Positions 8,231-23,350 of a DNA stretch of 51,009 bases are shown here, piece by piece. Origin of the DNA: Spirochaetes bacterium GWE1_32_154 (GTDB taxonomy: Bacteria; Spirochaetota; GWE2-31-10); the NCBI GenBank assembly GCA_001829315.1, contig MIAY01000006.1, positions 1 to 51,009 of the forward strand, read 5' to 3'. How positions within the stretch are numbered: the stretch's first letter is position 1; each line of letters opens with the position of its first letter. The translations under genes and the position numbers were made by a program. A model generated the notes under the pieces. That model had not been told where the DNA came from, ran no database searches, and was given only the letters and a program-made list of their open reading frames with translations.

Positions 8231-8279
8231 ACCTGTCCGTATGGATAAGGTATTTTAATAGTAAATTGGAGTGTGTAAA

Positions 8280-8468
8280 TTGAACATGGTAAAAAAAATA
8301 TCCGAGTTGGTAGCTCGAATATTTCATAAAAAACAAGTTAGTAAAAACATCAATATCAAGAATAGAAAATTTTACATCAAAAGTCAAGAAGAAATTAACG
8401 CAGAAATAGCAAGAGAACTACTCTTTATTCAAAGGGAGTATTCTTTAATCAACAGGAGGGTTAAATAA
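8280..8468 (+). CDS. Small basic hypothetical protein
   Basis: About 62 residues, beginning at TTG 8280 (TTG AAC ATG), which GGAG at 8268-8271 supports best. An ATG two codons later is the alternative. It is Lys/Ile-rich with a helical body (EEINAEIARELLFIQREYSLINRR). It ends one base before the exonuclease start and carries that gene's ribosome-binding site (GGAGGG) in its last codons. Confidence 0.5.
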   Translation: MNMVKKISELVARIFHKKQVSKNINIKNRKFYIKSQEEINAEIARELLFIQREYSLINRRVK

Positions 8469-8469
8469 T

Positions 8470-9051
8470 ATGAAAATATTTTGGATTGATACTGAGACTA
8501 CCGGTTTGGATAGTAACAATGATAAAATTATTCAGTTAGCATGTATTTTTGAAGATACTGAAAAAGAACTGATAATTAAAAAAGATTGGTATATTAAACA
8601 CAATAATTATCCTGAATCATTCGCAGATGCTGAAAAGATTCATGGAATAACAAGAGATTTTCTTAATGAATCAGGTAAAAGTAAAAGTGAAGTTTATAGA
8701 GAATTGTTATTATTATTAGATAATAATATTGAAAAATTTAACAAAAAAGACAAGGCAATATTAGCCGGATATAATGTAGAATTTGATAAAGGATTTTTAT
8801 ATAAATTATTTTTATCAAATAACAATTCTTTTTTTCATTCATATTTTCACTCAGCAAAACTGGAAGTAATGAGTCATTTTATTTATTTATATTATGACTC
8901 TAATGACAATTTAAATGATATTGAAAACTTCAAACTTGAAACACTTTGTAATCAATTTAGAATTAAATTTAATTCTCACAATGCAATGGCAGATATTCAA
9001 GCAACACGTGAACTTTTTTTAAGCATAACTGACGCATTATATAACAATTAG
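8470..9051 (+). CDS. DnaQ-like DEDDh 3'-5' exonuclease
   Basis: A 193-residue protein with a complete set of DEDDh catalytic residues: D7 and E9 in DTETTG, D106 in NVEFD, and H170 with D175 in HNAMAD. This is the fold of the DNA polymerase III epsilon subunit and of RNase T-type enzymes. The position before RecT and SSB suggests it generates single-stranded ends for phage recombination, taking the place of the RecE/lambda-Exo nuclease, although the family can also act in proofreading. It starts just after the small basic gene. Confidence 0.88.
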   Translation: MKIFWIDTETTGLDSNNDKIIQLACIFEDTEKELIIKKDWYIKHNNYPESFADAEKIHGITRDFLNESGKSKSEVYRELLLLLDNNIEKFNKKDKAILAGYNVEFDKGFLYKLFLSNNNSFFHSYFHSAKLEVMSHFIYLYYDSNDNLNDIENFKLETLCNQFRIKFNSHNAMADIQATRELFLSITDALYNN

Positions 9052-9064
9052 AGGAGAAAATAGT

Positions 9065-9973
9065 ATGAGTGATTTAGCAATTAAAACAGAAACAAAAAAT
9101 GAAGTTATTACAGAGCAGCAATTAAAAGATTATGCAAAAACATTTCTTGCAACTCAAAATTTAAGTGACAATGAAATAAGCCAATTTATTGGAATTGCAA
9201 AAGCATTTCAATTAAATCCATTTAAAAGGGAAATCTATTGTATAGCGTATGGTTCTGGTCAATATAGAACATTACAAATAGTTACCGGATATGAGGTCTA
9301 TTTAAAAAGAGCTGAAAGACTTGATTTGCTCAATGGATATGAAACATCATTTTCCGGTAGTATTTCAAGAAGTACAATATCAATTGAAAGAAACAAAAAG
9401 GGCGGTGAAGGAACTTATAACAAATCTGTTGAGGTATGCAGAGGTGACTTATCGTGTACTATTACAATTTATAGAAAAGATAGAGAAAAGCCATTTAAGA
9501 AAACTATTTACTTTGAGGAATTTACTCAAGATAATGAAATATGGAATAGTAAACCGCGTTTTATGCTTGAGAAAGTCGCTTTATCCATTGGATTTCGTCA
9601 ATGTTTCCCTGATGAAATGGGGGGGATGCCATATACAAACGAAGAAATAAAAGACGAGCAAAAGGATGTTACTCCAGAAAAACAACCCGACGTAAAAAAT
9701 AACAAACAGCAAAGCAATAAACAACAACAACCAAAACCGAAAGTACAGGATGCTGAAATAATTATTGAAGATACAGTAGAGACACGAAAAAAACTATTTT
9801 CTGACTTCACGGAAATGATTGATAAAATTGGAATGAATCTTGACGCAAAAGACGGATCAACCGCTCATAAAATATGTATAGCATATAATGAGAATGACCC
9901 CATATTAACGGCTCAATACTTATTTCAAACTATTGAATTCATCAGCAATAAATACAACGTGGTTAATAATTAA
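9065..9973 (+). CDS. bet: RecT/Bet-family single-strand annealing protein
   Basis: A 302-residue protein. Residues about 30-190 match the phage recombination protein Bet: FIGIAKAFQLNPFKREIYCIAYG, TGYEVYLKRAERL and RFMLEKVALSIGFRQCFPDEMGGMPYT. A low-complexity Gln/Lys/Pro linker follows (about 205-230), then a C-terminal helical region that may contact SSB. It anneals complementary single strands during phage recombination. GAGGAG precedes the ATG. Neighbours are an exonuclease upstream and SSB downstream, the usual recombination module. Confidence 0.88.
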   Translation: MSDLAIKTETKNEVITEQQLKDYAKTFLATQNLSDNEISQFIGIAKAFQLNPFKREIYCIAYGSGQYRTLQIVTGYEVYLKRAERLDLLNGYETSFSGSISRSTISIERNKKGGEGTYNKSVEVCRGDLSCTITIYRKDREKPFKKTIYFEEFTQDNEIWNSKPRFMLEKVALSIGFRQCFPDEMGGMPYTNEEIKDEQKDVTPEKQPDVKNNKQQSNKQQQPKPKVQDAEIIIEDTVETRKKLFSDFTEMIDKIGMNLDAKDGSTAHKICIAYNENDPILTAQYLFQTIEFISNKYNVVNN

Positions 9974-9981
9974 TAAAAAAT

Positions 9982-10005
9982 AAAAGGGGACTTGAGCCCC
10001 TTTTT
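9982..10005 (+). terminator. Intrinsic terminator after the annealase gene
   Basis: AAAAGGGG and CCCCTTTTT form a hairpin with a short loop and a T-run just after the annealase stop. It may reduce readthrough into the SSB unit. Confidence 0.7.
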
Positions 10006-10029
10006 AAAATTCAAAAAAAGGGATGTTAT

Positions 10030-10194
10030 ATGAAAGTATTTTTTAAAAAAGGTGAGTATGTAAAACATAAAGGACAGGTGTATAAAGTTGTTAATGACAA
10101 TACAAATCAATCACTCATATATGCAAAAAATTTAAAATCAGGTGTAGATAGATTTTTATACATTTCAGAATTGGAGGTTATACCTCATGAGTAA
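10030..10194 (+). CDS. Small hypothetical phage protein
   Basis: A 54-residue protein, MKVFFKKGEYVKHKGQVYKVVND..., that looks like a small beta-barrel (KGEYVKHKGQVYKV is SH3/KOW-like in pattern). It overlaps the SSB start by 8 bases and contains that gene's ribosome-binding site (GGAGG). No family is assigned. Confidence 0.55.
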   Translation: MKVFFKKGEYVKHKGQVYKVVNDNTNQSLIYAKNLKSGVDRFLYISELEVIPHE

Positions 10195-10714
10195 AGATAC
10201 AAATAGTATTGTAATAATTGGAAGATTAGTTCGTGATCCTGAAATAAGATATACACCTTCAGGAACCGCTGTCTGTAAATTTTCCATTGCTAATGGTGAA
10301 ACAATTAAACAAAATAACGAATGGAAGGATTATACAAATTTCTTTGACGTTGTTGTTTTTGGAAATCAAGCGATTAATTGTGAAAAGTATTTAAAGAAAG
10401 GCTCAAAGATTAGTGTTGTAGGCTCAATTAAACAGAATAGATGGGAGGATAAAACAACAAATCAAGCAAGGTCAAAAGTTGATATACAATGCCGTGAGAT
10501 CATGTTTTTAACACCTGCAAACGACGGAAATAATCAAACATCAACAACGTCTGCAGAACCGGATAAACAACAGAAAATAGTAAATAAACCGGCTCAAAAA
10601 CCAAATAGAGAAGATAACAATGAGTATGTTCCTGATCCGTGGGCTGATGCAAGTGATACGTATGATTCTATTGAATGGCCAATGCAAAATGGCGATGATG
10701 ACATTCCGTTTTAA
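10187..10714 (+). CDS. ssb: Single-stranded DNA-binding protein
   Basis: A 175-residue protein. The N-terminal about 105 residues form the OB fold with standard SSB features (VIIGRLVRDPEIRYTPSGTAVCKFSIAN, WKDYTNFFDVVVFG, YLKKGSKISVVGSI). A disordered Gln/Asn/Pro linker follows, and the conserved acidic tip DDDIPF ends the protein. It binds single-stranded DNA during phage replication and recombination and recruits partners through the tip. GGAGG precedes the ATG inside the upstream gene. Confidence 0.95.
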   Translation: MSKDTNSIVIIGRLVRDPEIRYTPSGTAVCKFSIANGETIKQNNEWKDYTNFFDVVVFGNQAINCEKYLKKGSKISVVGSIKQNRWEDKTTNQARSKVDIQCREIMFLTPANDGNNQTSTTSAEPDKQQKIVNKPAQKPNREDNNEYVPDPWADASDTYDSIEWPMQNGDDDIPF

Positions 10715-10779
10715 TCGCAATCCTTTTTAAACAGGGATAATGGCCATTCGATTATTATATCGAAATATTTGGAGGTAAT

Positions 10780-11844
10780 ATGATAAAAAATAACGCTGAA
10801 TATTTTTCACATGATGCTACCATGAGAAATGACAGAAAGATTCTCGCCATTCGCAATAAATTTGGAATCACCGGTTATGCAATCTGGGTAATGATTCTTG
10901 AAGAATTGTGCATATCAGAAAATTTCAGATTAGAATATGACGACATTACTATTGAAACATTATCCGGTGATTTCAGAATTGAGCCTAAATTACTCAAGGA
11001 AATAATTGATTATTCATTTAAACTTAAACTCCTTTTTATAGAGGACGGATATTTATTCTCTCATAATTTTATATCAAGAATGCGACCACTGGAAGAAAAA
11101 AGACAAGCAAAAAGTGAAGCCGGTAAAAAAGGTATGAAAAGTAGATATAAAATTGATGATTCTGTTATAACACCCGATGATTCTGTTATAACAGAAAGCA
11201 GTTCTGTTATAACAACTACTAATTCTGTTATAACAGCGGATAACATAGTAGAGCATAGTATAGTAGAGCATAGTATAGTAAAGAAAAGCAACGACGCTCT
11301 TAATACACGTGAGTCGCTATTTTTTAAATTAAAAGAATCAGGACTTTCGGATAAACAGGCTCAATCAGTTATAAAAAATCATCATCCAGAAAAAATCATT
11401 GATAAAATCAATTTGACAAACTGGTTAATTATTAACAAGCCTGAAAAAGTCAAAAGTAAACCGGCATATCTTTACCAAGCCATTCTTGACGATTGGATTG
11501 ACGATGGGTATGAAAATCGAAATAATAAACCACCACCACCACCTGATAAGACAGAATTAAAGGTCCGGCGAATAATTCAGGAATATCAAAAATTAACCGG
11601 GATAAACAAAGATTTAAATCTTATTCGGGAAATTTTCGAGAAAAAATGCACTGAAAAAGACATTGATGTTATTACTGCTGTCATGCGAGAAATATATCTT
11701 GAGCCTGAATTGATTAACGATTTACCGCTTGAAACATTATTATCCGGTGACAGAATTAAAAACGAAGCCATAAAAATAAAAAAAAGCATAAGTCAGATAG
11801 ATGTCAGCTTTTTAAAAAACAATGAGATAGTTTTAAACGCTTAA
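10780..11844 (+). CDS. Phage replication initiator (DUF4373/Lin1244-type N-terminus) with internal origin
   Basis: A 354-residue protein with GGAGG before ATG 10780. Residues 6-110 match the DUF4373 (Lin1244/Lin1753-like) domain: EYFSHDATMRNDRKILAIRNKFGITGYAIWVMILEELC. Residues about 125-155 are a low-complexity linker in which SVIT recurs four times because the DNA there is iterated. The C-terminal part is helical with a Pro run (residues 247-251). By analogy with lambda O-type initiators, the N-terminal domain may bind the iterons embedded in its own gene and the C-terminal part may recruit helicase or its loader. Confidence 0.75.
   Translation: MIKNNAEYFSHDATMRNDRKILAIRNKFGITGYAIWVMILEELCISENFRLEYDDITIETLSGDFRIEPKLLKEIIDYSFKLKLLFIEDGYLFSHNFISRMRPLEEKRQAKSEAGKKGMKSRYKIDDSVITPDDSVITESSSVITTTNSVITADNIVEHSIVEHSIVKKSNDALNTRESLFFKLKESGLSDKQAQSVIKNHHPEKIIDKINLTNWLIINKPEKVKSKPAYLYQAILDDWIDDGYENRNNKPPPPPDKTELKVRRIIQEYQKLTGINKDLNLIREIFEKKCTEKDIDVITAVMREIYLEPELINDLPLETLLSGDRIKNEAIKIKKSISQIDVSFLKNNEIVLNA
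11160..11235 (+). repeat. Four iterons, candidate phage replication origin
   Basis: TTCTGTTATAACA occurs four times with no mismatch, at 11160-11172, 11181-11193, 11202-11214 and 11223-11235, at an exact 21-base period (two helical turns). Each copy contains the 10-bp palindrome TGTTATAACA. The location inside the initiator gene is the layout of lambdoid origins. Confidence 0.85.
11245..11280 (+). repeat. Tandem 15-bp repeat, candidate unwinding element
   Basis: ATAGTAGAGCATAGT is present twice in tandem (11245-11259, 11260-11274) and a third partial unit ATAGTA follows. It lies directly after the iterons, where an easily melted element would be expected. Confidence 0.6.
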
Positions 11845-11865
11845 ATCATGTCACTGGGAGGGGAA

Positions 11866-12150
11866 ATGATTAATAATTTTACAGCACCTGATAAAGTCAT
11901 GGATATTATTAAAATCGCTTCAAGCGTAGATTTAACTCTTAATCAAAAGATTCAGTATGTATCAACAGCCTATGCAGGAGAGGCGGTGTATTTTCCTCAA
12001 AGGACAGTTAAGGCCATTAGAAATGCTGAAATATTGCAAGATTATTATCAACACAAAATGACTGCAAAACAAATTGCAATAAAATTTTATATGTCAGAAA
12101 GCACCATTTTTGAAATTTTGAGAAAAGAAAAATATAAAATTGAGCCTTAA
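11866..12150 (+). CDS. Mor-family-like transcription activator
   Basis: A 94-residue protein. I start it at 11866, where GGGAGGGG sits 3-10 bases upstream; an ATG at 11848 lacks such a site. The segment GEAVYFPQRTVKAIRNAEILQDYYQHKMTAKQIAIKFYMSESTIFEILRKEK resembles the C-terminal half of Mor/C phage activators, a GG-x-YIP-like turn followed by a helix-turn-helix. It lies between replication and lysis genes, where a late-gene activator is expected. The assignment is by pattern, without a score. Confidence 0.6.
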   Translation: MINNFTAPDKVMDIIKIASSVDLTLNQKIQYVSTAYAGEAVYFPQRTVKAIRNAEILQDYYQHKMTAKQIAIKFYMSESTIFEILRKEKYKIEP

Positions 12151-12156
12151 TACTTA

Positions 12157-12191
12157 AAAACTATGAAAACCGATTTGATTTTCATAGTTTT
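12157..12191. terminator. Bidirectional hairpin before the lysis genes
   Basis: AAAACTATGAAAA (12157-12169) and TTTTCATAGTTTT (12179-12191) are perfectly complementary, 13 bp. It separates the Mor-like gene from the lysis module, so the late genes may have their own promoter or be reached by antitermination. Confidence 0.6.
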
Positions 12192-12220
12192 AAACTGCTA
12201 TTATATTTTTGAGGTGAAAT

Positions 12221-12475
12221 ATGTCAGACGAAAAAAAATTAAGCGAATTAGACCAAAAAAAGCCAACCGATGCTAAAAACCTGTCAAAATGGGGAATGGT
12301 ATTATCAGTTATAGTACAAACATTATGTACTGTAGGTCACATTATAGTTAAAAAAGATTTCCCTAATTTAGACACGCAAATAAGTATGTCTTTCTTTTCA
12401 TTATTTTTTACGATCCCATTCACACCAGTTTATGTAAATTTATTTTTAGATAAAATATTTGGAGGTAGAAAATGA
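12221..12475 (+). CDS. Putative holin
   Basis: An 84-residue protein with a charged N-terminus (about 22 residues, rich in Lys and Asp) and two hydrophobic stretches at about 26-45 and 56-78, ending in the basic tail GGRK. Size, topology and position before spanins and a lysin fit a two-helix holin that opens the inner membrane. Holins share little sequence, so this rests on context. GAGGTG precedes the ATG, and the end overlaps the next start as ATGA. Confidence 0.6.
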   Translation: MSDEKKLSELDQKKPTDAKNLSKWGMVLSVIVQTLCTVGHIIVKKDFPNLDTQISMSFFSLFFTIPFTPVYVNLFLDKIFGGRK

Positions 12476-12762
12476 GTGTAATTTTAATTTTAATAATTAT
12501 AATTGCTGTTTTGGTTTTTATTTATTCCGGGACTGTTTTTGGTTTTATTATGGCAATTAAAGCAAAAGACAGCAAAATTAAAATGCAATTTCAAGATATT
12601 AAATATCTTGAAAATGAGTTGATATCTGCTAACGGCAAAATTAAAGCATTAAATAAAATACAAAATATAACCGGTTTAGGAAAAGAAAATGAAGATATTA
12701 TTACAAAAATTCCTGTTGATACTTATAATCCTGACGGGTTGTTCCACCGTTTCAAAAGGTAA
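12472..12762 (+). CDS. Inner-membrane spanin subunit (Rz-like)
   Basis: A 96-residue protein with one N-terminal membrane helix (about residues 3-27) followed by a helical, coiled-coil-type region (KDSKIKMQFQDIKYLENELISANGKIKALNKI). This is the design of i-spanins, which span the periplasm and meet an outer-membrane lipoprotein to fuse the membranes at lysis. The next gene overlaps it by 74 bases in another frame and encodes a lipoprotein, as in Rz/Rz1 pairs. GGAGG precedes the start. Confidence 0.7.
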   Translation: MSVILILIIIIAVLVFIYSGTVFGFIMAIKAKDSKIKMQFQDIKYLENELISANGKIKALNKIQNITGLGKENEDIITKIPVDTYNPDGLFHRFKR

Positions 12763-12964
12763 TAGTTTAAGAACTGAACATATTGCAATGCCATCATATC
12801 CGTTAATGCTTGATGTTCAATTTAAGAAAAATGAAAACGGCTTTTCACTTACCGTACAGGATACTAAAAACCTCGATATTAACCTTGAAAGGCTCAATAC
12901 ATACATAAAATCATTGGAAGCAATAATCGATGGTTACAGGGGGCAAAATGCCGATTATAGATAA
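12689..12964 (+). CDS. Outer-membrane spanin lipoprotein (Rz1-like), overlapping the i-spanin
   Basis: A 91-residue protein whose first 17 residues form a lipoprotein signal ending in LTGC (lipidated Cys at 17). It begins inside the i-spanin gene in the +1 frame, an overlapping arrangement typical of o-spanins. The mature part (about 75 residues) is larger than lambda Rz1 and not Pro-rich. No clear ribosome-binding site is visible, so coupling to the upstream gene is likely. The pairing strongly implies a host with an outer membrane. Confidence 0.68.
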   Translation: MKILLQKFLLILIILTGCSTVSKGNSLRTEHIAMPSYPLMLDVQFKKNENGFSLTVQDTKNLDINLERLNTYIKSLEAIIDGYRGQNADYR

Positions 12965-13673
12965 TATCTATGCTCTCATTGCCACTATATTTGTCTGTAT
13001 GGTATTCTCAATGCTCATTGTATTTGCTATACGAAAACGCGTGTCTTTTAAGCTTTCAAGCGATGGTGTCGTATTAAATACTCCCGATGGTAAATATATT
13101 TCATCCGAAAGAAATTTCTTTATTTTTCAAGAAATAAGAAAACTGGATAAAGTCATTTATGATATTTCTGAAATACAGATACTCGATGAACAAATGACAT
13201 TTATTGAACGAGAGCTTGAACGGTATTACAAAGAGAATCTTGATCTCATTGTTAATAAAGCAGAATTAAGTATTGATAGTGACTTATACCGTAATTACCA
13301 ATTAATTTATATTCTTCATGAAGAAAAGATGAAAAAACAAATTAAGCGTATTTTAAAAGAAAATCACCTATGTGATAAGCCAGAATGGAATGCGTACAAA
13401 GAGCGACAGTTTGAATTTACATGGTCAAAGTCAATGGAGTATCTTGACAGTTATTTTGGCGTTATTCAAATTGAATCAAGAAAAATTATTACCGATCAGA
13501 TAAGAGCTTACTTAAAAAATGAATACAAAGTAAAGTTTCATTATTGGATGGATGAGTTTAGAAATATAACATCTGAAAAATTGAAGGAAGTTCAAAAGAC
13601 TCAGAATAAAATAGAAACTCTTCATTCTCAATTAGGGTACAACCATATTATCGAGGTTAAAAACAATGAATAA
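12948..13673 (+). CDS. Single-pass membrane protein in the lysis block, unknown
   Basis: A 241-residue protein. I start it at 12948 behind GGGGGC; an ATG six codons earlier is weaker. Residues about 7-25 form a membrane helix, followed by a long, charged, mostly helical region with many Glu/Lys and aromatic residues and no obvious domain. It overlaps the o-spanin end and the lysin start, so it is cotranscribed with lysis genes. A role at the envelope is likely but not specified. Confidence 0.55.
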   Translation: MPIIDNIYALIATIFVCMVFSMLIVFAIRKRVSFKLSSDGVVLNTPDGKYISSERNFFIFQEIRKLDKVIYDISEIQILDEQMTFIERELERYYKENLDLIVNKAELSIDSDLYRNYQLIYILHEEKMKKQIKRILKENHLCDKPEWNAYKERQFEFTWSKSMEYLDSYFGVIQIESRKIITDQIRAYLKNEYKVKFHYWMDEFRNITSEKLKEVQKTQNKIETLHSQLGYNHIIEVKNNE

Positions 13674-14136
13674 TAATAATACTATATATCCTGCTCCCGA
13701 TAAAGGAAGATACAGAAAATTCGGATTTAAGCTTGGAAACCTAACACACATTGGGCATGATTTTGATTGTCCAGAAGATACACCTGTCATTGCAATTGCT
13801 GATGGTATGGTAGTTGATAATAAAATGATCAATGGTTTTGGCAGTATGAATCCACACACTAATGGAGGTGTTTTATTTATCAAACATATTGATAAAAACG
13901 GTCACTATTTTATCGGGCTTTACGGGCATGTTAAGTCTAAACTTCAAAAGGGAATAATTGTAAGAAAAGGGGATATCATAGGAAGTATAATAGAATTTTA
14001 TAATTCTAATTTATATCTTCCTCACTTGCATTTTGGTATTTATATCAGCAATGAAATACCACAAGCACCTTATGGGTACACATCTAATATTGATAAGTGG
14101 GTTAATCCAATTGAGTTTTTGAAAACAAGGATATAA
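13666..14136 (+). CDS. M23-family peptidase, probable endolysin
   Basis: A 156-residue single-domain protein with the M23 (LytM) zinc-site pattern. GHDFD near residue 30 gives the first His/Asp ligands, HLHFG near residue 124 gives the His-x-His, and LYGHV near residue 86 fits the conserved H of the active site. M23 enzymes cut peptide cross-bridges in the cell wall. There is no signal peptide, so it would leave through the holin. Its position after holin and spanins and before terminase supports a phage lysin. Confidence 0.82.
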   Translation: MNNNNTIYPAPDKGRYRKFGFKLGNLTHIGHDFDCPEDTPVIAIADGMVVDNKMINGFGSMNPHTNGGVLFIKHIDKNGHYFIGLYGHVKSKLQKGIIVRKGDIIGSIIEFYNSNLYLPHLHFGIYISNEIPQAPYGYTSNIDKWVNPIEFLKTRI

Positions 14137-14141
14137 CAATA

Positions 14142-14735
14142 ATGGCATATACTCAAGAACAATGGGAGCAAGTACAAAGTGATTTCGTACAGGGAATTAT
14201 TGAGAATGGGAAACTAATATACCCATCTTTTAATCAGCTTTCAATTTCTTATAAAATATCAAAATCAACCATGTCCGTTCGTGCAAAAAAAGAAAAGTGG
14301 GAAGAAAAAAAAGAGATATATCAAAATAAAATAGCGTCAAAGCATGATAAAATCATACGAACAAAAATAGAACAAATAGAACACGAATCGAACAAAACGA
14401 ACGCCCTCAGTACTAAGTGGGCTGAGTTTGATTTAAAGTGTCTTGAGCTTGCAAACAATGCTCTTGACCTATGCAAAATGGATATTGAAGCACTCAAAGA
14501 ATTCAAAGACACATACGATTCATTATCAGATGAATCAAAATTACAAATTCAAAAATATACACCGCTTGCACTAAAACACTTAGCAGAAGCCATAGAAAAA
14601 TACCAGAAAATTGGTAAGAATGCGGTCGGTGAGACTCTTGCAAATAACGATAAACCTCAGCAAAACATAACTATCAATACTATAAACGATGATAATTTAT
14701 TTTCAAGGCTCAATGGTGGAGTCAATGAACAATGA
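14142..14735 (+). CDS. Terminase small subunit
   Basis: A 197-residue protein. The N-terminal segment PSFNQLSISYKISKSTMSVRAKKEKWEEKKEIYQNKI is a helix-turn-helix with the RA-x-KEKW-x-EKK signature common to small terminases. A long helical oligomerisation region follows. It recognises phage DNA and delivers it to the large subunit. It overlaps the large-subunit gene by about 11 bases. The start ATG 14142 has only a weak upstream ribosome-binding site (AAGGATATAACAAT). Confidence 0.78.
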   Translation: MAYTQEQWEQVQSDFVQGIIENGKLIYPSFNQLSISYKISKSTMSVRAKKEKWEEKKEIYQNKIASKHDKIIRTKIEQIEHESNKTNALSTKWAEFDLKCLELANNALDLCKMDIEALKEFKDTYDSLSDESKLQIQKYTPLALKHLAEAIEKYQKIGKNAVGETLANNDKPQQNITINTINDDNLFSRLNGGVNEQ

Positions 14736-16197
14736 TGAATACCGGGAGTTATTGATTGAAGCCTCAAGGCGTGATTTTTGGACTTTCTGCCAAACAATGC
14801 ATCATTACAAAAAAGAATGGTTTCATATCAAAATGTTATGTACTGTTCTCCAGGCTTTTTGGCAAGGTGCATTGAGCCGAAAAGAAGGAAAACAATTCAA
14901 ACGTCTTATTATCAATGAGCCTCCACGACATTTTAAATCAAGAACAATGGTTTTATTTTCAGCATGGTTATTCGGTCATAGGCCTAAAGAAAAGTTATTT
15001 GTTGCTTCATATTCAGAGTCTCTTGCAACAGATTTTTCAAGATATGTTCGTGATGAAATAAGCCAAATTAGAACTTCATATGATGATATTGTTTATGAGG
15101 ATGTTTTCCCAAATACAAAATTAAAGTATGGCAATAAATCATTCAAACAATGGGCGTTAGAAGGTTCTTTTTTTTCATATAAGGGATGCGGTGTTGGCAC
15201 AGGTGTTACCGGTCGAGGTTGTACCGTTGCTATAATTGACGATATTATAAAATCCTATGAAGAAGTTGTTAATGAAGCAGCACTTGAAAAAAAATGGGAG
15301 TGGTATAAAAATACATGGCGGTCCCGATATGAGAAAGGGGCACTTGAAATTATTATAATGACTCGATGGTCAAGAAATGATTTATGCGGAAAATTGCTTG
15401 ACGGTAAAGAACCATATCGGATTGATACATTAAAAAAATGTGGTAAGATTTTATATTATGATGACACCGTTGTTTTACAGCAAGAAGTATTCGATGGTGA
15501 AAATATGCTTTGTGAAGATATGCTTGATCACAACAGCTATATCGATATTATGAATACAGTTGACCCGCCAATATTCAAAGCAAACTATCACAATGAATTA
15601 GTTGACATAAAAGGTCGACTGTATGAATACTTTAATGAATACGATGAATTACCAAAACCGACTCATCGTAAATGTGGTTTTATTGATATTGCCGACAAGG
15701 GCGGTGATTATGTATGTGGTATCTTTGGTGAGATAGTTAATAAAAAAGGATATATAAAAGATATTGTTTACAATAAACAGGGTATTGAATATTCAATTGA
15801 ATTATGTGCAAGAGCAATTATCAATAATGATATCATTGAAACTGTTATTGAAAATAATTATGGCGGTTCTTCATTTCCTTTGTTGTTAAAAAATGTAATT
15901 GGAAAATTATGTAAAGAGAAAGGGATTGTTAATAAATATGTCATACAAGAGATATCCCAAAGAGGTAATAAACTTGCCAGAATAATCACGAATGCCCCGA
16001 TTGTTTCAGCAAGGCTTTATTTCAATAAAAATTGGAAGTATAAACACCGGGAGTTTTATAACCATGTTACTACGTTTCAAAGGGAAGGAAAAAACAAGCA
16101 TGATGATGCAGAAGACGCTATGACCGGATTTGTTGAATCGTTTATACTTGTTTCTAATGCACCGTCAGTAACTTCAGGAAGAATAGAGGGGCTTTAA
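14725..16197 (+). CDS. Terminase large subunit
   Basis: A 490-residue protein. I start it at 14725 behind GGTGGAG; the frame is open 12 codons further upstream. The ATPase domain has a Walker-A-like EPPRHFKSR (65-73) and Walker B VAIIDDI (about 168-174), followed by the coupling motif TRWSRNDL (about 213-220). The C-terminal nuclease domain shows acidic residues in GFIDIADKGGDYVCG and in KHDDAEDA near the end, with ENNYGG between. It packages DNA into a prohead. Normally a portal gene follows; here the next gene is the convergent integrase. Confidence 0.9.
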   Translation: MNNDEYRELLIEASRRDFWTFCQTMHHYKKEWFHIKMLCTVLQAFWQGALSRKEGKQFKRLIINEPPRHFKSRTMVLFSAWLFGHRPKEKLFVASYSESLATDFSRYVRDEISQIRTSYDDIVYEDVFPNTKLKYGNKSFKQWALEGSFFSYKGCGVGTGVTGRGCTVAIIDDIIKSYEEVVNEAALEKKWEWYKNTWRSRYEKGALEIIIMTRWSRNDLCGKLLDGKEPYRIDTLKKCGKILYYDDTVVLQQEVFDGENMLCEDMLDHNSYIDIMNTVDPPIFKANYHNELVDIKGRLYEYFNEYDELPKPTHRKCGFIDIADKGGDYVCGIFGEIVNKKGYIKDIVYNKQGIEYSIELCARAIINNDIIETVIENNYGGSSFPLLLKNVIGKLCKEKGIVNKYVIQEISQRGNKLARIITNAPIVSARLYFNKNWKYKHREFYNHVTTFQREGKNKHDDAEDAMTGFVESFILVSNAPSVTSGRIEGL

Positions 16198-16210
16198 CCC
16201 CTCTTTTTTT
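16185..16210. terminator. Terminator between terminase and integrase
   Basis: AGAGGGG (16185-16191) pairs with CCCCTCT (16198-16204) and is followed by seven T. It overlaps the terminase stop codon. No late gene follows. Confidence 0.8.
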
Positions 16211-17303
16211 ATTCTTTCTCTGGAAAGGCTTTTTCGACTAATGCCTGATAATGTTTGGTATTTCTGTTAACATAATGTTTTAGTGCAACCTCAGGGTTAT
16301 TGCCTGCTTGTTTTGAAACAAAATGAATATCATTAGTTGAATTGAGTTGATCGGTTACCGCGGTATGCCTGAAAGCGTACAGGATATAGTCCTTTGGCAG
16401 GTTCATTTCAACTTTTAATTTTTGAAATTGTTTTGAGTAAAACTCATCGCCTTTGGTACCGCCAATAAATAAAAATCCTGATGTTATCCCGGTTCTTTCA
16501 AGGTGTTTTTTTAACATCTCAAAATATATATCCGGTAAATATGTTTCTTTTGTTTCTTTTACTTTATTCATGAATATTTTAACGGTTTTATTTTTTTCGT
16601 CAAAATCTTCAAGTTTAATGATTCTTGCTTCATTTGGTCTTGAAACGGTATAATAAAGCGTTGTAATGTAGAATGAAAAATCATAATTACCTTTACTTTC
16701 AATAAAATCAATTATCCTTTTAAAATCATCCTCAGCAATAACAGTTTGACGCCCTACCCTTTTTATTTTTGGAAAATCTAAGCATTGATAGAGATCACGA
16801 GAAAACAAACCCCTTTTAATACAATTATTTATAAATGATTTTACTTCACGAATAAGCGTCTCCATGGTTGCATTTGCATAATCCTTATTATCAATAAATA
16901 ATTTATCAAGGTTATCTTGATTGAGGTCATTAAAAGTAAGAATACCATGCTTAATAAATTTTTGAAGCGTCCAATTTTTTGTATAAAGATTATTTGCAGA
17001 ATGACCTTTTGCCGAGCATGTAATAATATACTTATTATAAGCGTCAATTAAATCATTATTTATTTCTTTTATCTCTTTTTCAACATTTCTTTCTTTTACA
17101 ATAGGTTTAACAATCGTTTCAACATTTCTTTTTGATGTTGTAATTCTTGCAATTGACCTTTGATTTACTAATGATAAAAGAAAATTATTATAAATTTCTT
17201 GAGCTAATGATTTATTTTTTGTCTTTGTTGTTAACTTTGTGATTTGTCCGTTTTGAGACACTTTGATGTAATAATATCCGTTTTTTTCCATGTATAACCC
17301 CAT
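16209..17303 (-). CDS. int: Tyrosine-recombinase phage integrase
   Basis: A 364-residue protein with an N-terminal arm-binding-type region (GYYYIKVSQNGQITKLTTKTKN), a core-binding domain and a C-terminal catalytic domain. Visible catalytic elements are the first Arg in SRPNEARI, the Arg-His of AFRHTAV and the nucleophile Tyr in ALKHYV. The usual His two residues before that Arg-His box is Tyr here, and the usual GH(S/T) is GNNP, so the active site deviates from the textbook pattern. It faces tRNA-Leu 113 bases away, the likely attachment site. GGAG precedes the start. Confidence 0.9.
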   Translation of the reverse strand: MGLYMEKNGYYYIKVSQNGQITKLTTKTKNKSLAQEIYNNFLLSLVNQRSIARITTSKRNVETIVKPIVKERNVEKEIKEINNDLIDAYNKYIITCSAKGHSANNLYTKNWTLQKFIKHGILTFNDLNQDNLDKLFIDNKDYANATMETLIREVKSFINNCIKRGLFSRDLYQCLDFPKIKRVGRQTVIAEDDFKRIIDFIESKGNYDFSFYITTLYYTVSRPNEARIIKLEDFDEKNKTVKIFMNKVKETKETYLPDIYFEMLKKHLERTGITSGFLFIGGTKGDEFYSKQFQKLKVEMNLPKDYILYAFRHTAVTDQLNSTNDIHFVSKQAGNNPEVALKHYVNRNTKHYQALVEKAFPEKE

Positions 17304-17328
17304 TTTACAACTCCACTTGTAGTCCGAA

Positions 17329-17350
17329 TTTGGTACAAATTTGGTACAAA
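17329..17350. repeat. Two tandem copies of TTTGGTACAAA upstream of int
   Basis: Perfect 11-bp copies lie at 17329-17339 and 17340-17350. Between the integrase start and the tRNA they are good candidates for integrase arm-type sites or for autoregulatory operators. Confidence 0.55.
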
Positions 17351-17416
17351 TGGTTTATTGCTGATTATGAAGTTGTGTAAATCATGGTATTAAAACAAGT
17401 TATAACATTAAAAAAC

Positions 17417-17500
17417 TGCCGGTGGTCGGAGTCGAACCGACACGAAGTTACCCTCACAAGATTTTGAGTCTAGCACGTCTACCAATTCCATCACACCGGC
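17417..17500 (-). tRNA. tRNA-Leu (CAA anticodon)
   Basis: An 84-nt class II tRNA on the minus strand with acceptor GCCGGTG/CACCGGC, a D-loop GGTAGAC, anticodon loop CTCAAAA giving anticodon CAA, a long variable arm, and the T-loop GTTCGACTC. CCA is not encoded; a T-run follows the discriminator base. The anticodon stem appears to hold one U-U mismatch (CUAGA against UCUUG). The 3' end points toward the integrase, consistent with integration into the tRNA 3' end. Confidence 0.92.
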
Positions 17501-17595
17501 ATAGAGTCTGCAATCTACCAGAAAATATCATTCAAGTCAATATTTTTATTTACTTTTTGCATGAGCCTCTATAACTATTTCAAACTTTAGTGTAT

Positions 17596-17713
17596 GAGGC
17601 TCTTGTAAAAATCAAGAGTACTTGATTTTGCTTCCGCAATATGCGATTATATCGCATTAGAGGGAGCTTCTTGCAAAAATTCGAGATAAAAAAGGTGTTT
17701 TTACAAGAAGCTC
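17596..17713 (+). repeat. Dispersed about 120-bp palindromic repeat, copy A
   Basis: It begins GAGGCTC, contains TCAAGAGTACTTGA, a central ATGCGATTATATCGCAT palindrome, and ends in a hairpin TTGCAAAAATTCGAGATAAAAA... TTTTTACAAGAAGCTC. It is closely similar to copies B (21915) and C (45827, inverted). A further GAGCCTC at 17563 gives an extra inverted half. It is non-coding and lies upstream of the patatin gene. Confidence 0.8.
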
Positions 17714-17738: not shown

Positions 17739-19025
17739 ATGAAGTCATATGCATTAGTTCTGGGTGGCGGTGGTGCGAAGGGCATTTATCAAATCGGAGT
17801 CTGGAAAGCATTGCGTGAACTTGGTATTAAATTCCATGCAGTCATTGGAACTTCAATAGGCTCTATCAATGGGTGCCTGATAATACAGGGAAATTTTGAA
17901 AAAGCAATGGAATTCTGGTCTGGTATCGAATTAAACACAGCTTTAAATATTCCTGATGAAATGATTTCAAATGGGAAGTTTATTATTAACACCGAGAATA
18001 TTGATAAACTTGTTACTTTACAAAAAGATATTATTAAAAATCGCGGAGTAGATACAACCCCTCTGGTTGGTTTACTTAATCAATATATCAGTGAAGAAAA
18101 AATCAGAAAGTCTAAAACAGATTTCGGCCTTGTCTCATTTAACGCGTCTAATCTTCGACCTTTTGAAATATTCAAAGAACACATCCCGAAAGGAGAACTC
18201 ATTCATTATATTATGGCATCATCTGCTCTACCGGGACTAAAACAAATTACTATTAATGGTAATTTTATGTTGGATGGTGGAATAGCGAATGTTGTACCGT
18301 ATGATCTTGCCCGTAAAAGAGGATATAAGAAAATCATTGTTGTTGATGTTTCAGGTCCTGGAAAATATAGAGTACCACATATTGTCGGTACTGAAACAAT
18401 TTATATAAAAAATTCATCTGATTTGGGTAGTATTATAGAAACAGATAAAAAAATTTATATGAAAAACTTTACAATGGGTTATATGGATACTATGAAAACA
18501 TTTAATAAATATTCCGGACATGTGTATACCTATGTAAATAATACAGCATTAAAAAGCAAAATTAACAAATATATCAAAGAACATGAAACTCAAATAATAA
18601 ATACTATTACTCAACATAACTCTAAAATTTCACATTTACACCAATTATTCCCTAAAAGATTTGCTTATGATAAAGACTTTGCCGGAATTGCTTCTGAATG
18701 TGCAGGAATAGTGGTAAAAATCCCGACTGACACTTTATATGATTATGAAGATTTTATTAATAGAATAAAACAATTATATAATGAACTTATGTTAAAAAAG
18801 AAAAATTATGAGGATACTGTAGTTACTGATCTACTTTTAAGAGTAATTCGTAATAAAATAAATTTATTTAATTTATCGGTTATGGAGTATGATTTTGCAT
18901 TATCATTTTTATTTTCAGCTGAAAAAATAAAAAAATGGATTCCCGGTGAAAATCTTTCTTTAATTATTGAAGAATTATACGGTGCACGATTATTTTTTTA
19001 TTTAGTGGATAAAGATGTTATTTAA
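17739..19025 (+). CDS. Patatin-like phospholipase
   Basis: A 428-residue protein with the patatin fold in its first about 200 residues: oxyanion loop GGGGAKG (9-15), nucleophile S39 in GTSIG, and catalytic D179 in DGG. It is expected to hydrolyse acyl esters of phospholipids. The C-terminal half (about 200-428) is helical and not recognised. The start is ATG 17739 with GGAGG 6 bases upstream; the frame extends back to a GTG without support. No signal peptide is visible, so it is probably cytoplasmic. The repeat copy A lies upstream. Confidence 0.88.
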   Translation: MKSYALVLGGGGAKGIYQIGVWKALRELGIKFHAVIGTSIGSINGCLIIQGNFEKAMEFWSGIELNTALNIPDEMISNGKFIINTENIDKLVTLQKDIIKNRGVDTTPLVGLLNQYISEEKIRKSKTDFGLVSFNASNLRPFEIFKEHIPKGELIHYIMASSALPGLKQITINGNFMLDGGIANVVPYDLARKRGYKKIIVVDVSGPGKYRVPHIVGTETIYIKNSSDLGSIIETDKKIYMKNFTMGYMDTMKTFNKYSGHVYTYVNNTALKSKINKYIKEHETQIINTITQHNSKISHLHQLFPKRFAYDKDFAGIASECAGIVVKIPTDTLYDYEDFINRIKQLYNELMLKKKNYEDTVVTDLLLRVIRNKINLFNLSVMEYDFALSFLFSAEKIKKWIPGENLSLIIEELYGARLFFYLVDKDVI

Positions 19026-19108: not shown

Positions 19109-19804
19109 ATGAGTCAAAACGGATGTCTTGTTTGCGGGGGTTTTTTAGAATACGGAAAACTTGAAAAACATACATGTTTATTCTGTGGTAAAGAGTTTGA
19201 AGCAGAAGTTTCATGTGTACATAAACATTATATATGTGATCATTGTCATTCAAGTGAAGCGGTTGAAATTCTTGAAAAATTTATAGCTGTTACTGAGTTA
19301 AAGGATCCAATACAAATGGCGGATATTATTATGCATCATCCATCATTTAAAATGCACGGAACCGAACATCATTATCTGGTACCGGCAGTTTTGGTTAAAT
19401 CAATACAAAACTCAGGGTATGAAGTGAATAATTTATTTTTTAATATAGTTAAAGCTCGTGGAAGTTCGTTACCCGGAGGAACCTGCGGATATTGGGGAGC
19501 ATGTGCTACAGCAATCGGTTGTGGAATATCTTCTGCTATTTATTTAAAAACAAGTCCGTTAAGTACAGATAATTATTCTTTAGTACATTCATTTACTGCT
19601 GATGCGATAAATGAAATAGCTAAAAAGCCCGGTCCCCGATGTTGTAAAAGAAATACCTATACAAGTATTTTAGCGGGAATTAAATCGTTTAAAAAGTATA
19701 CAGATATTGAAATACAAGCAAGTACACCGGTTTGTTCTTTTTTTAAAGACAATAATGAATGTCTCGGTTTAGAATGTCCATATTTTCCCGGAGCAAACAA
19801 ATGA
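19109..19804 (+). CDS. Cys-rich DUF5714-like protein
   Basis: A 231-residue protein. The N-terminal 46 residues hold CxxC pairs (C6/C9, C23/C26, C43/C46) plus C36, a double zinc-ribbon pattern. The body matches what I recall as DUF5714: HHPSFKMHGTEHHYLVPAVLV and GGTCGYWGACATAIGCGISSAI, later GPRCCKRNT, and CSFFKDNNECLGLECPYF at the end. Conserved Cys and His throughout suggest metal or thiol chemistry; no biochemical function is known to me. It is the first gene after a good promoter and overlaps the methyltransferase start as ATGA. Confidence 0.7.
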   Translation: MSQNGCLVCGGFLEYGKLEKHTCLFCGKEFEAEVSCVHKHYICDHCHSSEAVEILEKFIAVTELKDPIQMADIIMHHPSFKMHGTEHHYLVPAVLVKSIQNSGYEVNNLFFNIVKARGSSLPGGTCGYWGACATAIGCGISSAIYLKTSPLSTDNYSLVHSFTADAINEIAKKPGPRCCKRNTYTSILAGIKSFKKYTDIEIQASTPVCSFFKDNNECLGLECPYFPGANK

Positions 19805-20409
19805 ATGAAACTATAATTGAACGATATACAAAAGAAGTGAAATCTGAAAGTTTAGGTTGCACAATAATAGATCCATACATTATACTTAATACTAATGATG
19901 CAATTTTAGAATTAGGTTCAGGAAACGGTAATTTTGCTGCACGGTTATCTGATACATATGACAGTTCTATACGGATAACCGGTGTCGATCTAACTCCGGC
20001 TATGGTTTTAAAAGCAAACATGGTGAATAAAAGAGATAATATATCCTATATGTGCTCTGATATTGTACATATACCTTTAGCTGATAGTGGTTTTAATGTA
20101 ATCGTCAGTAACTGCGTTATCAATCACATTGCTGATAAAGAAGCTGTGTACAGAGAAATATATAGATTATTAAAAAATGACGGGTATTTTCTCGTTGGTG
20201 ACATAGTTTCAGTGGGATGGCTTCCCGATGAAGTGAGAAATGATCCGAGCGCTATTGCCGATTGCTATGGCGGAGCAATACCGGAAGACATATATTTAGA
20301 AAGTATTAAAAAAGCAGGTTTTAATACAATTGAAATTATTTCAAGAAGACAGTATGAAAAAAATGGCTTTCCAATAGAAAGTCTTTTAATAAAAGGAGTT
20401 AAAAAATGA
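19801..20409 (+). CDS. Class I SAM methyltransferase, ArsM-like
   Basis: A 202-residue protein with motif I ILELGSGNG (35-43), GVDLTPAMV (61-69), and SNCVINHIADKEAVYREIYRLLKNDGYFLVGDIV (103-136). The SNCVIN and D-C-x-GGAI-x-ED (C155) features recall arsenite methyltransferase (ArsM) and its relatives, which methylate a thiol-bound metalloid. It is shorter than ArsM and lacks the long C-terminus. The substrate here could be a metalloid, a small molecule or the adjacent peptide. ATG 19801 overlaps the upstream stop, and its own stop overlaps the peptide start as ATGA. Confidence 0.75.
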   Translation: MNETIIERYTKEVKSESLGCTIIDPYIILNTNDAILELGSGNGNFAARLSDTYDSSIRITGVDLTPAMVLKANMVNKRDNISYMCSDIVHIPLADSGFNVIVSNCVINHIADKEAVYREIYRLLKNDGYFLVGDIVSVGWLPDEVRNDPSAIADCYGGAIPEDIYLESIKKAGFNTIEIISRRQYEKNGFPIESLLIKGVKK

Positions 20410-20525
20410 AATCAGTTACTAAAGTAAACATTAAGAAGAATCAGGTTTGTTGTTCTACAGCAGACAGTTCTGTTGCACAATGTTGCAGTAAAAACACAAA
20501 AATTGTTGCAGGTTGCCACGATTAA
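20406..20525 (+). CDS. 39-residue Cys-rich peptide, candidate modified-peptide precursor
   Basis: MKSVTKVNIKKNQ leads into a Cys-patterned tail. Cysteines lie at 15, 16, 26, 27 and 37, so the motif CCS recurs with an exact 11-residue period and a third single Cys follows at the same step. The start overlaps the methyltransferase stop (ATGA) and AAAGGAG lies 6 bases upstream, a strong coupled site. A basic leader-like part followed by a Cys-periodic core, directly before a radical SAM/SPASM enzyme, is the layout of ribosomally made, post-translationally modified peptides. A small metal-binding protein is the alternative. Confidence 0.72.
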   Translation: MKSVTKVNIKKNQVCCSTADSSVAQCCSKNTKIVAGCHD

Positions 20526-20534: not shown

Positions 20535-20563
20535 CCGTAGAGGTATTTCAAATACCTCTACGG
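20535..20563 (+). promoter_or_regulatory. Strong stem-loop between peptide gene and radical SAM gene
   Basis: CCGTAGAGGTATTT (20535-20548) is fully complementary to 20550-20563, so a stem of about 12-13 bp with a tiny loop forms. No T-run follows on either strand, so it is probably not a plain terminator. Its position could stabilise or limit the upstream transcript and raise peptide over enzyme. Confidence 0.65.
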
Positions 20564-20597: not shown

Positions 20598-21944
20598 ATG
20601 TATAAATCAAGATATAATTTAATAACACCAATAGATTCTGAAAATAATGCTGTTTTTAATCCATTGTCAGGTGCTTTTGACATTGCAGATAATGAAACGG
20701 TAAAACGGTTTACTGATGGTAAACCACTTGATGATGATGAACAGGAATACTGGTTTACCCGGGGGTATTTTTTCGGAACAGCAGAAGAAGAACAGAATTA
20801 CATTGAAAAAAGATATAATGATTTTAATGAAGAAGTTAACAAAAGTGAAGTTCAATTTGTTTTTGTACCAACATATTCATGTAATTTTTCATGCGGATAT
20901 TGCTACCAGAAAGGAGTAGACCGTTCTGTTGCCTATCCTTCACATGAGTTAATTGACAATATGGTTGATTATATGGTCAATTTTCGAAAAGAAAATAAAC
21001 GTGATGTATATCTTACCCTTTTTGGCGGTGAACCGTTACAGAACAAAAAAGAAAACTATGACATGATGGAATACCTGGTAAAAAAATTAACTGATAATTC
21101 AATCGGTTTTGCAGTTGTAACCAATGCCTATAATCTGACAAAATACATAAAAATTCTTGAAAAAGGAATTATCCGTGAAATACACATCTCATTAGACGGT
21201 GACAAAGAAGTTCATAATAAACGAAGAAAAACCGGTCAGGATGCAAACACTTTCGATGCGATTATGGAAGGTATAACAAAAGCTGTTTCATTATTTATCC
21301 CGATTAATATACGAATGATTATTGATAAAGAAACGATAGAGACATTACCGTTATTAGCTGAAAGACTTGATAAAGCAGGTTTCCTCGACTTACCGAAAAC
21401 AAGATTTAAGACGTCACTCGGCAGAAATTACGAGTTAATAAATGAATACATGAAACCCGGTGATTTATTTACTTTAGATGAAATGTATAGGGTATATACT
21501 GATTTACTCATGAAACATCCAATACTTAAGAAACTTCATATTCCATCGTATTTTGGAATATCACATATGGTCGACAAGGGTGAAATGTATATTCCTGATT
21601 TTGATTCATGCCCCGCATTTAAAAGTGAAATGGCATTTGATTATTCAGGCGGTATTTATAGCTGTACAGCAAGTGTTGGTAGAGAAGATTACAAGGTTGG
21701 TACTTTTTACCCTGAGTTGTATATTGATGATCAAAAAACAGCTGACTGGAAAAAACGATCAATACTCACTATCCCGGAATGCAAAGATTGTTCTGTTGGT
21801 GTTGTATGTGGTGGCGGATGTGGAGTTATTGCAAAACAAAAAAACGGAACTGTATTATCACCGGATTGTAAACCGGTTAAAAAGGTTATGGATTATGGAA
21901 TACAATTTTATGCGGAGGCTCTTACAAAAATCAAGAGTACTTGA
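20598..21944 (+). CDS. Radical SAM/SPASM peptide-maturase-type enzyme
   Basis: A 448-residue protein. The N-terminal about 85 residues (NLITPIDSENNAVFNPLSGAFDI) resemble the peptide-recognition start of SPASM maturases. The radical SAM cluster is C95-x3-C99-x2-C102 with GGEP at 143-146. SPASM-type auxiliary-cluster cysteines are C338, C356, C395, C398, C404, C408 and C424 (CKDCSVGVVCGGGC). Such enzymes use radical chemistry to cross-link or otherwise modify Cys-containing peptides. AAGGA precedes the start. The last ten residues (AEALTKIKST) and the stop lie inside repeat copy B, so the native end was replaced by the repeat. Confidence 0.85.
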   Translation: MYKSRYNLITPIDSENNAVFNPLSGAFDIADNETVKRFTDGKPLDDDEQEYWFTRGYFFGTAEEEQNYIEKRYNDFNEEVNKSEVQFVFVPTYSCNFSCGYCYQKGVDRSVAYPSHELIDNMVDYMVNFRKENKRDVYLTLFGGEPLQNKKENYDMMEYLVKKLTDNSIGFAVVTNAYNLTKYIKILEKGIIREIHISLDGDKEVHNKRRKTGQDANTFDAIMEGITKAVSLFIPINIRMIIDKETIETLPLLAERLDKAGFLDLPKTRFKTSLGRNYELINEYMKPGDLFTLDEMYRVYTDLLMKHPILKKLHIPSYFGISHMVDKGEMYIPDFDSCPAFKSEMAFDYSGGIYSCTASVGREDYKVGTFYPELYIDDQKTADWKKRSILTIPECKDCSVGVVCGGGCGVIAKQKNGTVLSPDCKPVKKVMDYGIQFYAEALTKIKST

Positions 21945-22031
21945 TTTTTATTACGCCACATGCAATATAATTGCATTAGAAGTAGCTTCTTGCAAAAATT
22001 CGAGATAAAAAATGTATTTTTGCAAGAAGCT
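21915..22031 (+). repeat. Dispersed about 120-bp palindromic repeat, copy B
   Basis: It has the same layout as copy A: GAGGCTC, TCAAGAGTACTTGA, a central ATGCAATATAATTGCAT, and the terminal TTGCAAAAATTCGAGATAAAAA... TTTTTGCAAGAAGCT hairpin. It starts within the radical SAM coding sequence and supplies its stop codon (TGA inside GTACTTGA). It also occupies the gap before the thioredoxin fusion gene. Confidence 0.8.
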
Positions 22032-22075: not shown

Positions 22076-23350
22076 ATGGTAAAAGAAATTAATAGTAGTG
22101 ATTATGAAGAACTGGTTTTAAATGCAAATGGTGGTGTCGTAGTTGATTTTTATTCAACAGAATGTCCTCCTTGTGAAGCATTACATTCTAAGTATGAATT
22201 CTTCGCAAATCTATATGGAAGTGAAATAAAATTCTACACAATTCACAGACAAGGTAATAAAGAACTTGCTGTTAAAAATGGAGTATCTTCAAGCCCTACC
22301 CTTTTATTTTATAAAAACGGTAAAGAAGTAGCGCCAAGAATGAATGGAGCAATAAAGAAAAGTGTATTAAAAAAAGTTCTTATAGAAACGTATAATTTAA
22401 AAGACAAATCAAGCGGTATTGAGCGAAAAGAATATTCGTATGATCTTGTGATAATAGGTGCAGGTCCAGCCGGTCTCACTGCCGGTTTGTATGCAGGTCA
22501 GGCAAAAATTAAAACTCTTATAATCGATCAGGCACTACCGGGCGGTCAGGTTAATGTAACACATTCTGTAGCCAATTATCCCGGAACCGGCGAGAAAATA
22601 AATGGTTATATGCTTATGCACAAATTAACCGAACAAGTTAAAGAGGCGAATGTTGATTTTTTTAACGCTTCTGAAATTATTTCGTTAGATTTAGAGAATA
22701 AAGTTATTTTAGTGGATGATGATAAAAAAGTTACTGCAAAGGCAATAATTCTTGCAACCGGAGCAACTCCTCGAAAACTTGGGTTACCCGGTGAAGAGAC
22801 CTATGCAGGAAAAGGTATATCATATTGTGCAACCTGTGACGGAAAATTCTATGAAGGAAAAGATATTTATGTAATCGGCGGAGGTAACAGTGCTGTAGAA
22901 GAAGCATTATTTTTAACAACCTTTGTTAATTCATTAACTATAATTCATCAATTTGATGAGTTCCAGGCAAACAAAACAGCGAGTGATGAAGCACTTGAAA
23001 ATCCTAAGATAAAAGTTCTCTGGTCACATGAACCTCGTGGTTTTTATGGAAACGGAACTTTTAAATATCTTGAAGTTGAAAATCTGAAAACGAAAGAAAC
23101 AATAAAACTTGAAAATGGATCGGGAGTGTTTGTATTTATCGGGTACGTTCCGCAAACCGAACTTTTTGCCGGGAAATTAAATATGGATAAATGGGGATAT
23201 ATTAGCGCTCAGGAAGATATGTCAACTAATATACCGGGTGTATATGTTGCCGGTGATGTCCGAAGTAAACTCTATCGACAAATAACAACTGCAGTAAGTG
23301 ACGGAACAATTGCATCTTTATCCGCACAAAAATATTTAAAGAATAAATAA
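22076..23350 (+). CDS. Thioredoxin-thioredoxin reductase fusion
   Basis: A 424-residue protein. Residues 1-105 are a thioredoxin domain with active site C30-P-P-C33. Residues 120-424 are a low-molecular-weight thioredoxin reductase with FAD motif GAGPAG (128-133), redox pair C251-A-T-C254, GGGNSA (268-273) and a C-terminal FAD motif VYVAGDVRSK. The NADPH-selecting arginines (usually HRR-x3-R after the second Gly motif) are replaced by HQFDEFQ, so NADPH use is doubtful. I start it at 22076 behind GAGGAG rather than five codons earlier. It probably supplies thiol reducing power to the upstream system. Confidence 0.88.
   Translation: MVKEINSSDYEELVLNANGGVVVDFYSTECPPCEALHSKYEFFANLYGSEIKFYTIHRQGNKELAVKNGVSSSPTLLFYKNGKEVAPRMNGAIKKSVLKKVLIETYNLKDKSSGIERKEYSYDLVIIGAGPAGLTAGLYAGQAKIKTLIIDQALPGGQVNVTHSVANYPGTGEKINGYMLMHKLTEQVKEANVDFFNASEIISLDLENKVILVDDDKKVTAKAIILATGATPRKLGLPGEETYAGKGISYCATCDGKFYEGKDIYVIGGGNSAVEEALFLTTFVNSLTIIHQFDEFQANKTASDEALENPKIKVLWSHEPRGFYGNGTFKYLEVENLKTKETIKLENGSGVFVFIGYVPQTELFAGKLNMDKWGYISAQEDMSTNIPGVYVAGDVRSKLYRQITTAVSDGTIASLSAQKYLKNK

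Follow-up and report, generated by a model that had tools for sequence, protein, structure and literature searches.

A conserved cysteine-rich peptide gene beside a radical SAM maturase and an ArsM-type methyltransferase: very probably the precursor of an uncatalogued RiPP family, with a tentative link to metalloids

The window, i.e., the whole stretch of 51,009 nucleotides from Spirochaetes bacterium GWE1_32_154 that was analysed here, contains an open reading frame (ORF) of only 120 bases (20406-20525, forward strand), which raises the question of whether so short a frame is a gene and, if it is, what the product does. Its translation is MKSVTKVNIKKNQVCCSTADSSVAQCCSKNTKIVAGCHD followed by a stop codon, and the cysteines of this 39-residue peptide fall at positions 15/16, 26/27 and 37, i.e., at two exact 11-residue steps, just as a preliminary description of the sequence had stated. 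That description had suggested that the period marks repeated modification or metal sites, perhaps in a precursor with several core units, that the basic first 13 residues could be a leader, and that lack of conservation of the frame in related genomes would speak against the idea. The start codon is preceded by GGAG and overlaps the stop codon of a methyltransferase gene (20407-20409) as an ATGA junction.

On the forward strand, the peptide gene is found in the order DUF5714 protein (19109-19804), methyltransferase (19801-20409), peptide, radical SAM/SPASM protein (20598-21944) and a fusion of thioredoxin and thioredoxin reductase (Trx-TrxR, 22076-23350). The DUF5714 stop and the methyltransferase start share the kind of overlap seen at the junction of methyltransferase and peptide, and the DUF5714 protein, a translationally coupled upstream accessory, is related to the N-terminal part of the selenoprotein MbdU. 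A patatin-like phospholipase is encoded directly upstream of the operon (17739-19025). Further upstream, a prophage-like segment (1-17501), named by eye, comprises a terminase-like ORF (14689-16197), recombination and SSB-like genes and an integrase (16209-17303), and ends at a tRNA-Leu(CAA) gene (17416-17501, reverse strand). The 21-mer CTTCTTGCAAAAATTCGAGAT occurs at 17667-17687 and 21986-22006 on the forward strand and at 45853-45873 on the reverse strand, and two of these exact copies flank the cassette region. It forms part of an intergenic repeat that is dispersed over the same genome in 138 copies when 2 or fewer mismatches over 20 bases are allowed.

The conservation of the peptide was followed by two independent routes. 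A search for the maturase, i.e., the radical SAM/SPASM protein, in 149 related genomes yielded 25 positives, where the adjoining DNA held the same kind of peptide, and a degenerate DNA pattern of the peptide core run on the GTDB collection matched at least 118 stretches; the core-pattern matches listed from that collection and the loci from relatives together constitute 130 distinct loci. A second search, which avoided the bias of the core pattern by using the maturase profile alone, covered 392 genomes of the phylum to which the window belongs and 150 genomes around a Bacteroidales carrier, and was positive in 36 of the former (about 9%, counted as species) and 14 of the latter. Over the search of the 149 relatives and both profile searches, 48 distinct genomes were found through the maturase, and the peptide is present in 47 of these, with the strict core adjoining the maturase in 45. 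One genome (G289) carries ALCC in place of AQCC, a natural Q-to-L variant, in another (G018) the peptide lies nearby on the opposite strand and ends in ...STADGCHD, and in a third (G062) the maturase locus is cut by the end of the contig. The frame, which the preliminary description had left as the point to check, is thus kept across phyla, as is also seen in the codon usage. At invariant positions of the 130 loci all synonymous codons are used, e.g., TGT and TGC 49 and 81 times, respectively, at the first core cysteine, and all four glycine codons; this free synonymous variation indicates that selection acts on the peptide. The ORF at 20406-20525 is a real gene.

Carriers among the matches listed include Spirochaetes, Bacteroidales/Paludibacter, Ignavibacteria, Anaeromyxobacter and other myxobacteria, Desulfosporosinus, Paradesulfitobacterium and other Bacillota, and one Hydrogenedentota bin; cultured carriers are Desulfosporosinus metallidurans, Anaeromyxobacter soli and Paradesulfitobacterium ferrireducens. 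Spread by plasmids or phages was considered and rejected, as only remote radical SAM homologues (<60% identity) are found there. Neither NCBIfam nor Pfam contains a curated model of the peptide family, the window peptide has no NCBIfam match, and literature searches for the core motif and for RiPPs combined with arsenic returned nothing relevant. Precursors of this size are often missed by gene callers, which explains why the family lacks a curated model.

In the window peptide, a leader of approximately residues 1-13 is followed by a CC block at 15-16, which is optional in the family, and by the C-terminal core at residues 24-39 (AQCCSKNTKIVAGCHD). The alignment of family peptides defines a near-invariant core, QCC-x-K-x-[S/T]-x-[I/V/L]-[V/I/T]-[A/S]-G-C-H-D-stop, at 20478-20525. 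Over the 130 loci the core reads A-Q-C-C-[A/S]-K-x-S-x-[I/V/L]-[V/I]-[A/S]-G-C-H-D at the very C-terminus, and the form AQCC[A/S]KxSx[I/V][V/I][A/S]GCHD-stop is found in Spirochaetota, Bacteroidota, Myxococcota, Bacillota and others. No selenocysteine form of the core was found near the maturases of the loci examined when TGA was read as U. The basic N-terminus does behave as a short leader, with the consensus start M[K/R]S[L/V][I/V/T]KK and a linker of variable length, giving peptides of 30-52 residues (median 33) over the 130 loci. Most members have three cysteines; the window peptide has five. As to the 11-residue period, the spacing from the core CC to the GC is 11 throughout the family, but 85 of the 130 peptides have a single cysteine or none in place of the upstream CC, and in the other 45 the distance of this CC to the core CC ranges from 5 to 17 and equals 11 in 18. 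Sixteen of these 18 belong to a QCC[S/T]K subfamily of spirochaetes and Desulfosporosinus-like Bacillota that includes the window peptide; within this subfamily 16 of 27 members have the upstream CC at 11 residues, the commonest spacing. The period is therefore a true trait of a subfamily, but not the essence of the family. A multi-core array with a variable copy number, as first proposed, does not fit these data: there are never more than two CC blocks, the upstream one is optional, and the sole near-invariant block is the C-terminal QCCxK...GCHD. The architecture is that of a short leader and one C-terminal core.

The stop codon of the peptide gene is directly followed by a 13-bp RNA hairpin (20535-20563, forward strand; z = -5.0). 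When 75 distinct gaps between peptide and maturase were scored against dinucleotide shuffles, along with two control intergenic regions, the median z was -3.3 and 42 gaps were below -3, compared with medians of -0.8 before the peptide and -1.1 after the maturase. A strong hairpin is thus usual after the peptide stop across the family and specific to that gap; among the hairpins listed, those of different lineages mostly show no sequence relationship. In other RiPP operons, hairpins after the precursor gene raise expression of the precursor over that of the enzyme. The element is a candidate for expression control or protection of the 3' end, and probably provides the peptide in excess over the maturase.

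The association of the peptide with the same enzymes was quantified by profile searches of six-frame ORFs at 24 loci with at least 3 kb of upstream and 3.5 kb of downstream sequence (earlier neighbour counts, based on greedy ORF calling, were too low in GC-rich genomes). Methyltransferase and maturase are present at all 24, and the Trx-TrxR fusion, a cassette member in which both the CPPC of the thioredoxin active site and the CATC of the reductase are conserved, at 23. The genes occur in several orders among these 24 loci, which indicates a functional unit rather than mere inheritance of order. The next commonest neighbours are DUF1847 (16 loci), MarR (12), DUF5714 (7), a TonB receptor (5) and DUF302 (5). 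DUF5714 was rejected as an obligate partner, being present at only 7 of the 137 loci fetched. In five Bacteroidales loci (L046, L059, L085, L093 and one more) a TonB-dependent receptor gene separates the methyltransferase gene from the peptide gene. None of the recurring neighbours of the family loci is a protease, exporter or immunity gene. Because a strictly conserved peptide is constantly found beside the same three enzymes, the ORF can be taken, with high confidence, as the precursor gene of a RiPP family that has not been catalogued.

The maturase (448 residues) bears out the expectation that a precursor-like peptide should lie next to a modifying enzyme, and is assigned as a radical SAM-SPASM protein with a putative RRE from its cysteine motifs and a model closest to CteB. 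Its CxxxCxxC motif (95-102; C95/99/102) and the complete 7-Cys SPASM motif (C338-G351-C356, C395-C398-C404-C408, C424; criterion CX9-15GX4C...CX2CX5CX3C...C) are approximately 100% conserved, and the 12 further genomes checked carry one copy each. In the AlphaFold model (pLDDT 94), residues 8-82 form three strands followed by three helices, an arrangement like that of an RRE (PqqD-like bbb-aaa domain), and match no RRE or PqqD profile; the best structural match of the model is CteB, followed by SuiB, TigE and anSME. Both CteB and SuiB contain an RRE. The maturase scores far below the cut-off of every curated maturase family scored. The highest values were obtained with CefB (NF038107; 141.7 vs 600 bits), TIGR04463 (128.5 vs 525) and PapB (NF047865; 119.8 vs 340), all of which act on cysteine-rich precursors, and the cysteine at every fifth position that is typical of CefA is not found in the window peptide. 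The CteA/CteB pair (SCIFF ranthipeptide; PDB 5wgg, 5why) similarly combines a short cysteine-rich precursor with an adjoining radical SAM-SPASM maturase, and the SCIFF system is also widely conserved and apparently lacks a dedicated exporter. In contrast to the present cassette, it has no ArsM-type methyltransferase or Trx-TrxR partner; its precursor has six cysteines in approximately 45 residues and an unrelated core motif, and the window maturase reaches 80 bits vs a cut-off of 425 for the SCIFF maturase family TIGR03974. Of the modifications suggested in the preliminary description, thioether formation is plausible from the maturase family, while methylthio formation gains no specific support.

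A maturase nearest to those of ranthipeptides and sactipeptides might suggest an antimicrobial or signalling RiPP of that kind, but the lack of a recurring exporter, protease or immunity gene, the single copy per genome and a core that is near-invariant over several phyla, whereas antimicrobial cores diversify, make this very improbable.

The methyltransferase (202 residues) is of the ArsM type. Its Cys20, Cys105 and Cys155 align with C72, C174 and C224 of CmArsM, i.e., with the As(III)-ligand cysteines of CmArsM/AS3MT, which were shown to bind arsenic in the known enzymes (PMC3877260). The conservation of Cys20, Cys105 and Cys155 in 113 cassette methyltransferases is 99-100%. By both sequence and fold (AlphaFold model pLDDT 93), the closest solved structures are CrArsM, CmArsM and human AS3MT. 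The arsenite methyltransferase family NF008823 is matched by 43 of 44 cassette methyltransferases, all below the cut-off of 263 bits (143 for the window protein, 144-242 for the cassette members of relatives), and in a quick tree canonical ArsM is separated from the cassette enzymes, which make up a group of their own (SH-aLRT 98), so that the substrate may have changed. Compared with ArsM/AS3MT, the cassette enzyme is shorter at both ends and is tied to a RiPP; it lacks the N-terminal CC-rich segment that almost every canonical ArsM of the related genomes carries. Links between an ArsM-type methyltransferase and a Cys/Sec-rich partner are also found in the selenoprotein families ArsM/AhpD, ArsM/DUF2284 and methyltransferase/UXPK-star (NF041537, NF041536 and NF047649; listed in PMC13188914), which are fusions with selenocysteine, whereas in the window family the cysteine-rich partner is encoded separately, as a peptide that has a radical SAM maturase of its own. 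An ArsM-like gene (family f19) with an in-frame TGA in the match, which could be a selenocysteine ArsM, was seen in six genomes (G025, G036, G448, G499, G513 and G528).

The genomic evidence for a link to arsenic is mixed. With shared ancestry ignored, canonical ArsM is found in 10 of 36 cassette carriers vs 14 of 356 non-carriers in the window's phylum (p 1e-5), and in 6 of 14 vs 20 of 136 in the second group (p 0.02); co-occurrence with ACR3 at the genome level is weak and confounded by ancestry (16/25 vs 48/124, p 0.026). The window's own genome has ACR3 and no canonical ArsM. Arsenic islands were rejected as the general location of the cassette, since, apart from G018, neither acr3 nor arsC is found next to any of the 130 loci, and ArsR-like genes occur at only two. 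In G018 the cassette is surrounded by arsR genes, canonical arsM, acr3, arsC and a gene for an arsP-like permease; a single locus of this type is near the chance expectation. This ars island (L157, contig C75, about 0.2-13.7 kb) also encodes DGC-like and CcdA-like proteins. Its cassette methyltransferase ends in KKACCCKG; the Trx-TrxR copy next to the maturase is broken, and a second one, at 12434-13729, is intact.

The reading that best accommodates these observations, to which we assign a probability of roughly 0.4, is that of a RiPP precursor whose product binds a thiophilic metalloid, with As(III) as the best guess, and presents it to its own ArsM-type methyltransferase. Judging from homology, the maturase would bind the leader, which is short and basic (MKSxxK...), through its putative RRE domain and would modify the core AQCCxKxSxIVAGCHD, most likely by forming a thioether from at least one of the three invariant cysteines. 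The product would remain intracellular, because the cassette has no protease or exporter, and may act together with the dedicated methyltransferase, its reduced state being kept by the dedicated Trx-TrxR fusion; Trx-TrxR is a known type of reductant for AS3MT. The peptide might thereby replace in trans the N-terminal CC-rich segment of ordinary bacterial ArsM that is missing from the cassette enzyme. If all three peptide cysteines were engaged in thioethers, no thiols would be left for the metalloid. Any metalloid role of the peptide is stated only tentatively, at somewhat less than even odds, because a single locus lies in an arsenic-resistance island; it stands behind the precursor assignment since acr3 and arsC are absent from the 130 loci, the window's own genome lacks canonical ArsM and the co-occurrence is uncorrected for ancestry. 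The more specific proposal, i.e., a RiPP serving as dedicated arsenic (metalloid) carrier or co-substrate of the methyltransferase, recycled by its own Trx-TrxR in a system spanning several phyla and mostly anaerobes, is doubtful.

Alternatively, the methyltransferase may act on the peptide itself, which would yield a RiPP with radical SAM crosslinks and S-, N- or O-methylation, i.e., a small intracellular redox peptide or cofactor recycled by Trx-TrxR. The strict 1:1:1:1 linkage with the three enzymes, the absence of arsenic genes at nearly all loci, the separate clade of the cassette methyltransferases, and an extreme sequence conservation across phyla in the absence of an exporter, which suits a cofactor rather than an antibiotic, are consistent with this alternative, but full retention of the three As-ligand cysteines is unexpected for mere peptide methylation; known peptide methyltransferases do not need these residues. 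On balance, peptide methylation is rather unlikely. Even less probable is a metallophore or buffering peptide for a thiophilic transition metal (Cu, Zn, Hg) with CC...GCHD as ligands: the invariant Cys, Cys, Cys, His and Asp, the TonB-dependent receptor and the possibly metal-related DUF5714 and DUF1847 neighbours would suit such a role, but that receptor is confined to 5 loci, genes for metal transporters or metalloregulators do not recur beside the cassette, and the ArsM-type methyltransferase would be left unexplained. Finally, nothing except the very short length suggests a frame that is open by chance or a regulatory ORF without a leader, and there is practically no room for either given conserved protein sequence with free synonymous variation at 130 loci and the peptide in 47 of 48 genomes picked without reference to it.

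That the core hardly varies between phyla suggests that the peptide serves a basic function of the cell and is not an antibiotic. The family, which is apparently unnamed, occurs in 36 of 392 species, or about 9%, of the phylum of the window, and its range extends to several further phyla. With only four small genes and cultured species among the carriers its role is directly testable. The purpose of metalloid methylation in anaerobes is debated (PMC11653729). If the link to the ArsM-type methyltransferase is true, RiPP chemistry would be tied to anaerobic metalloid methylation, and if the peptide is indeed a carrier, bacteria would possess a metalloid methylation system based on a ribosomal peptide.
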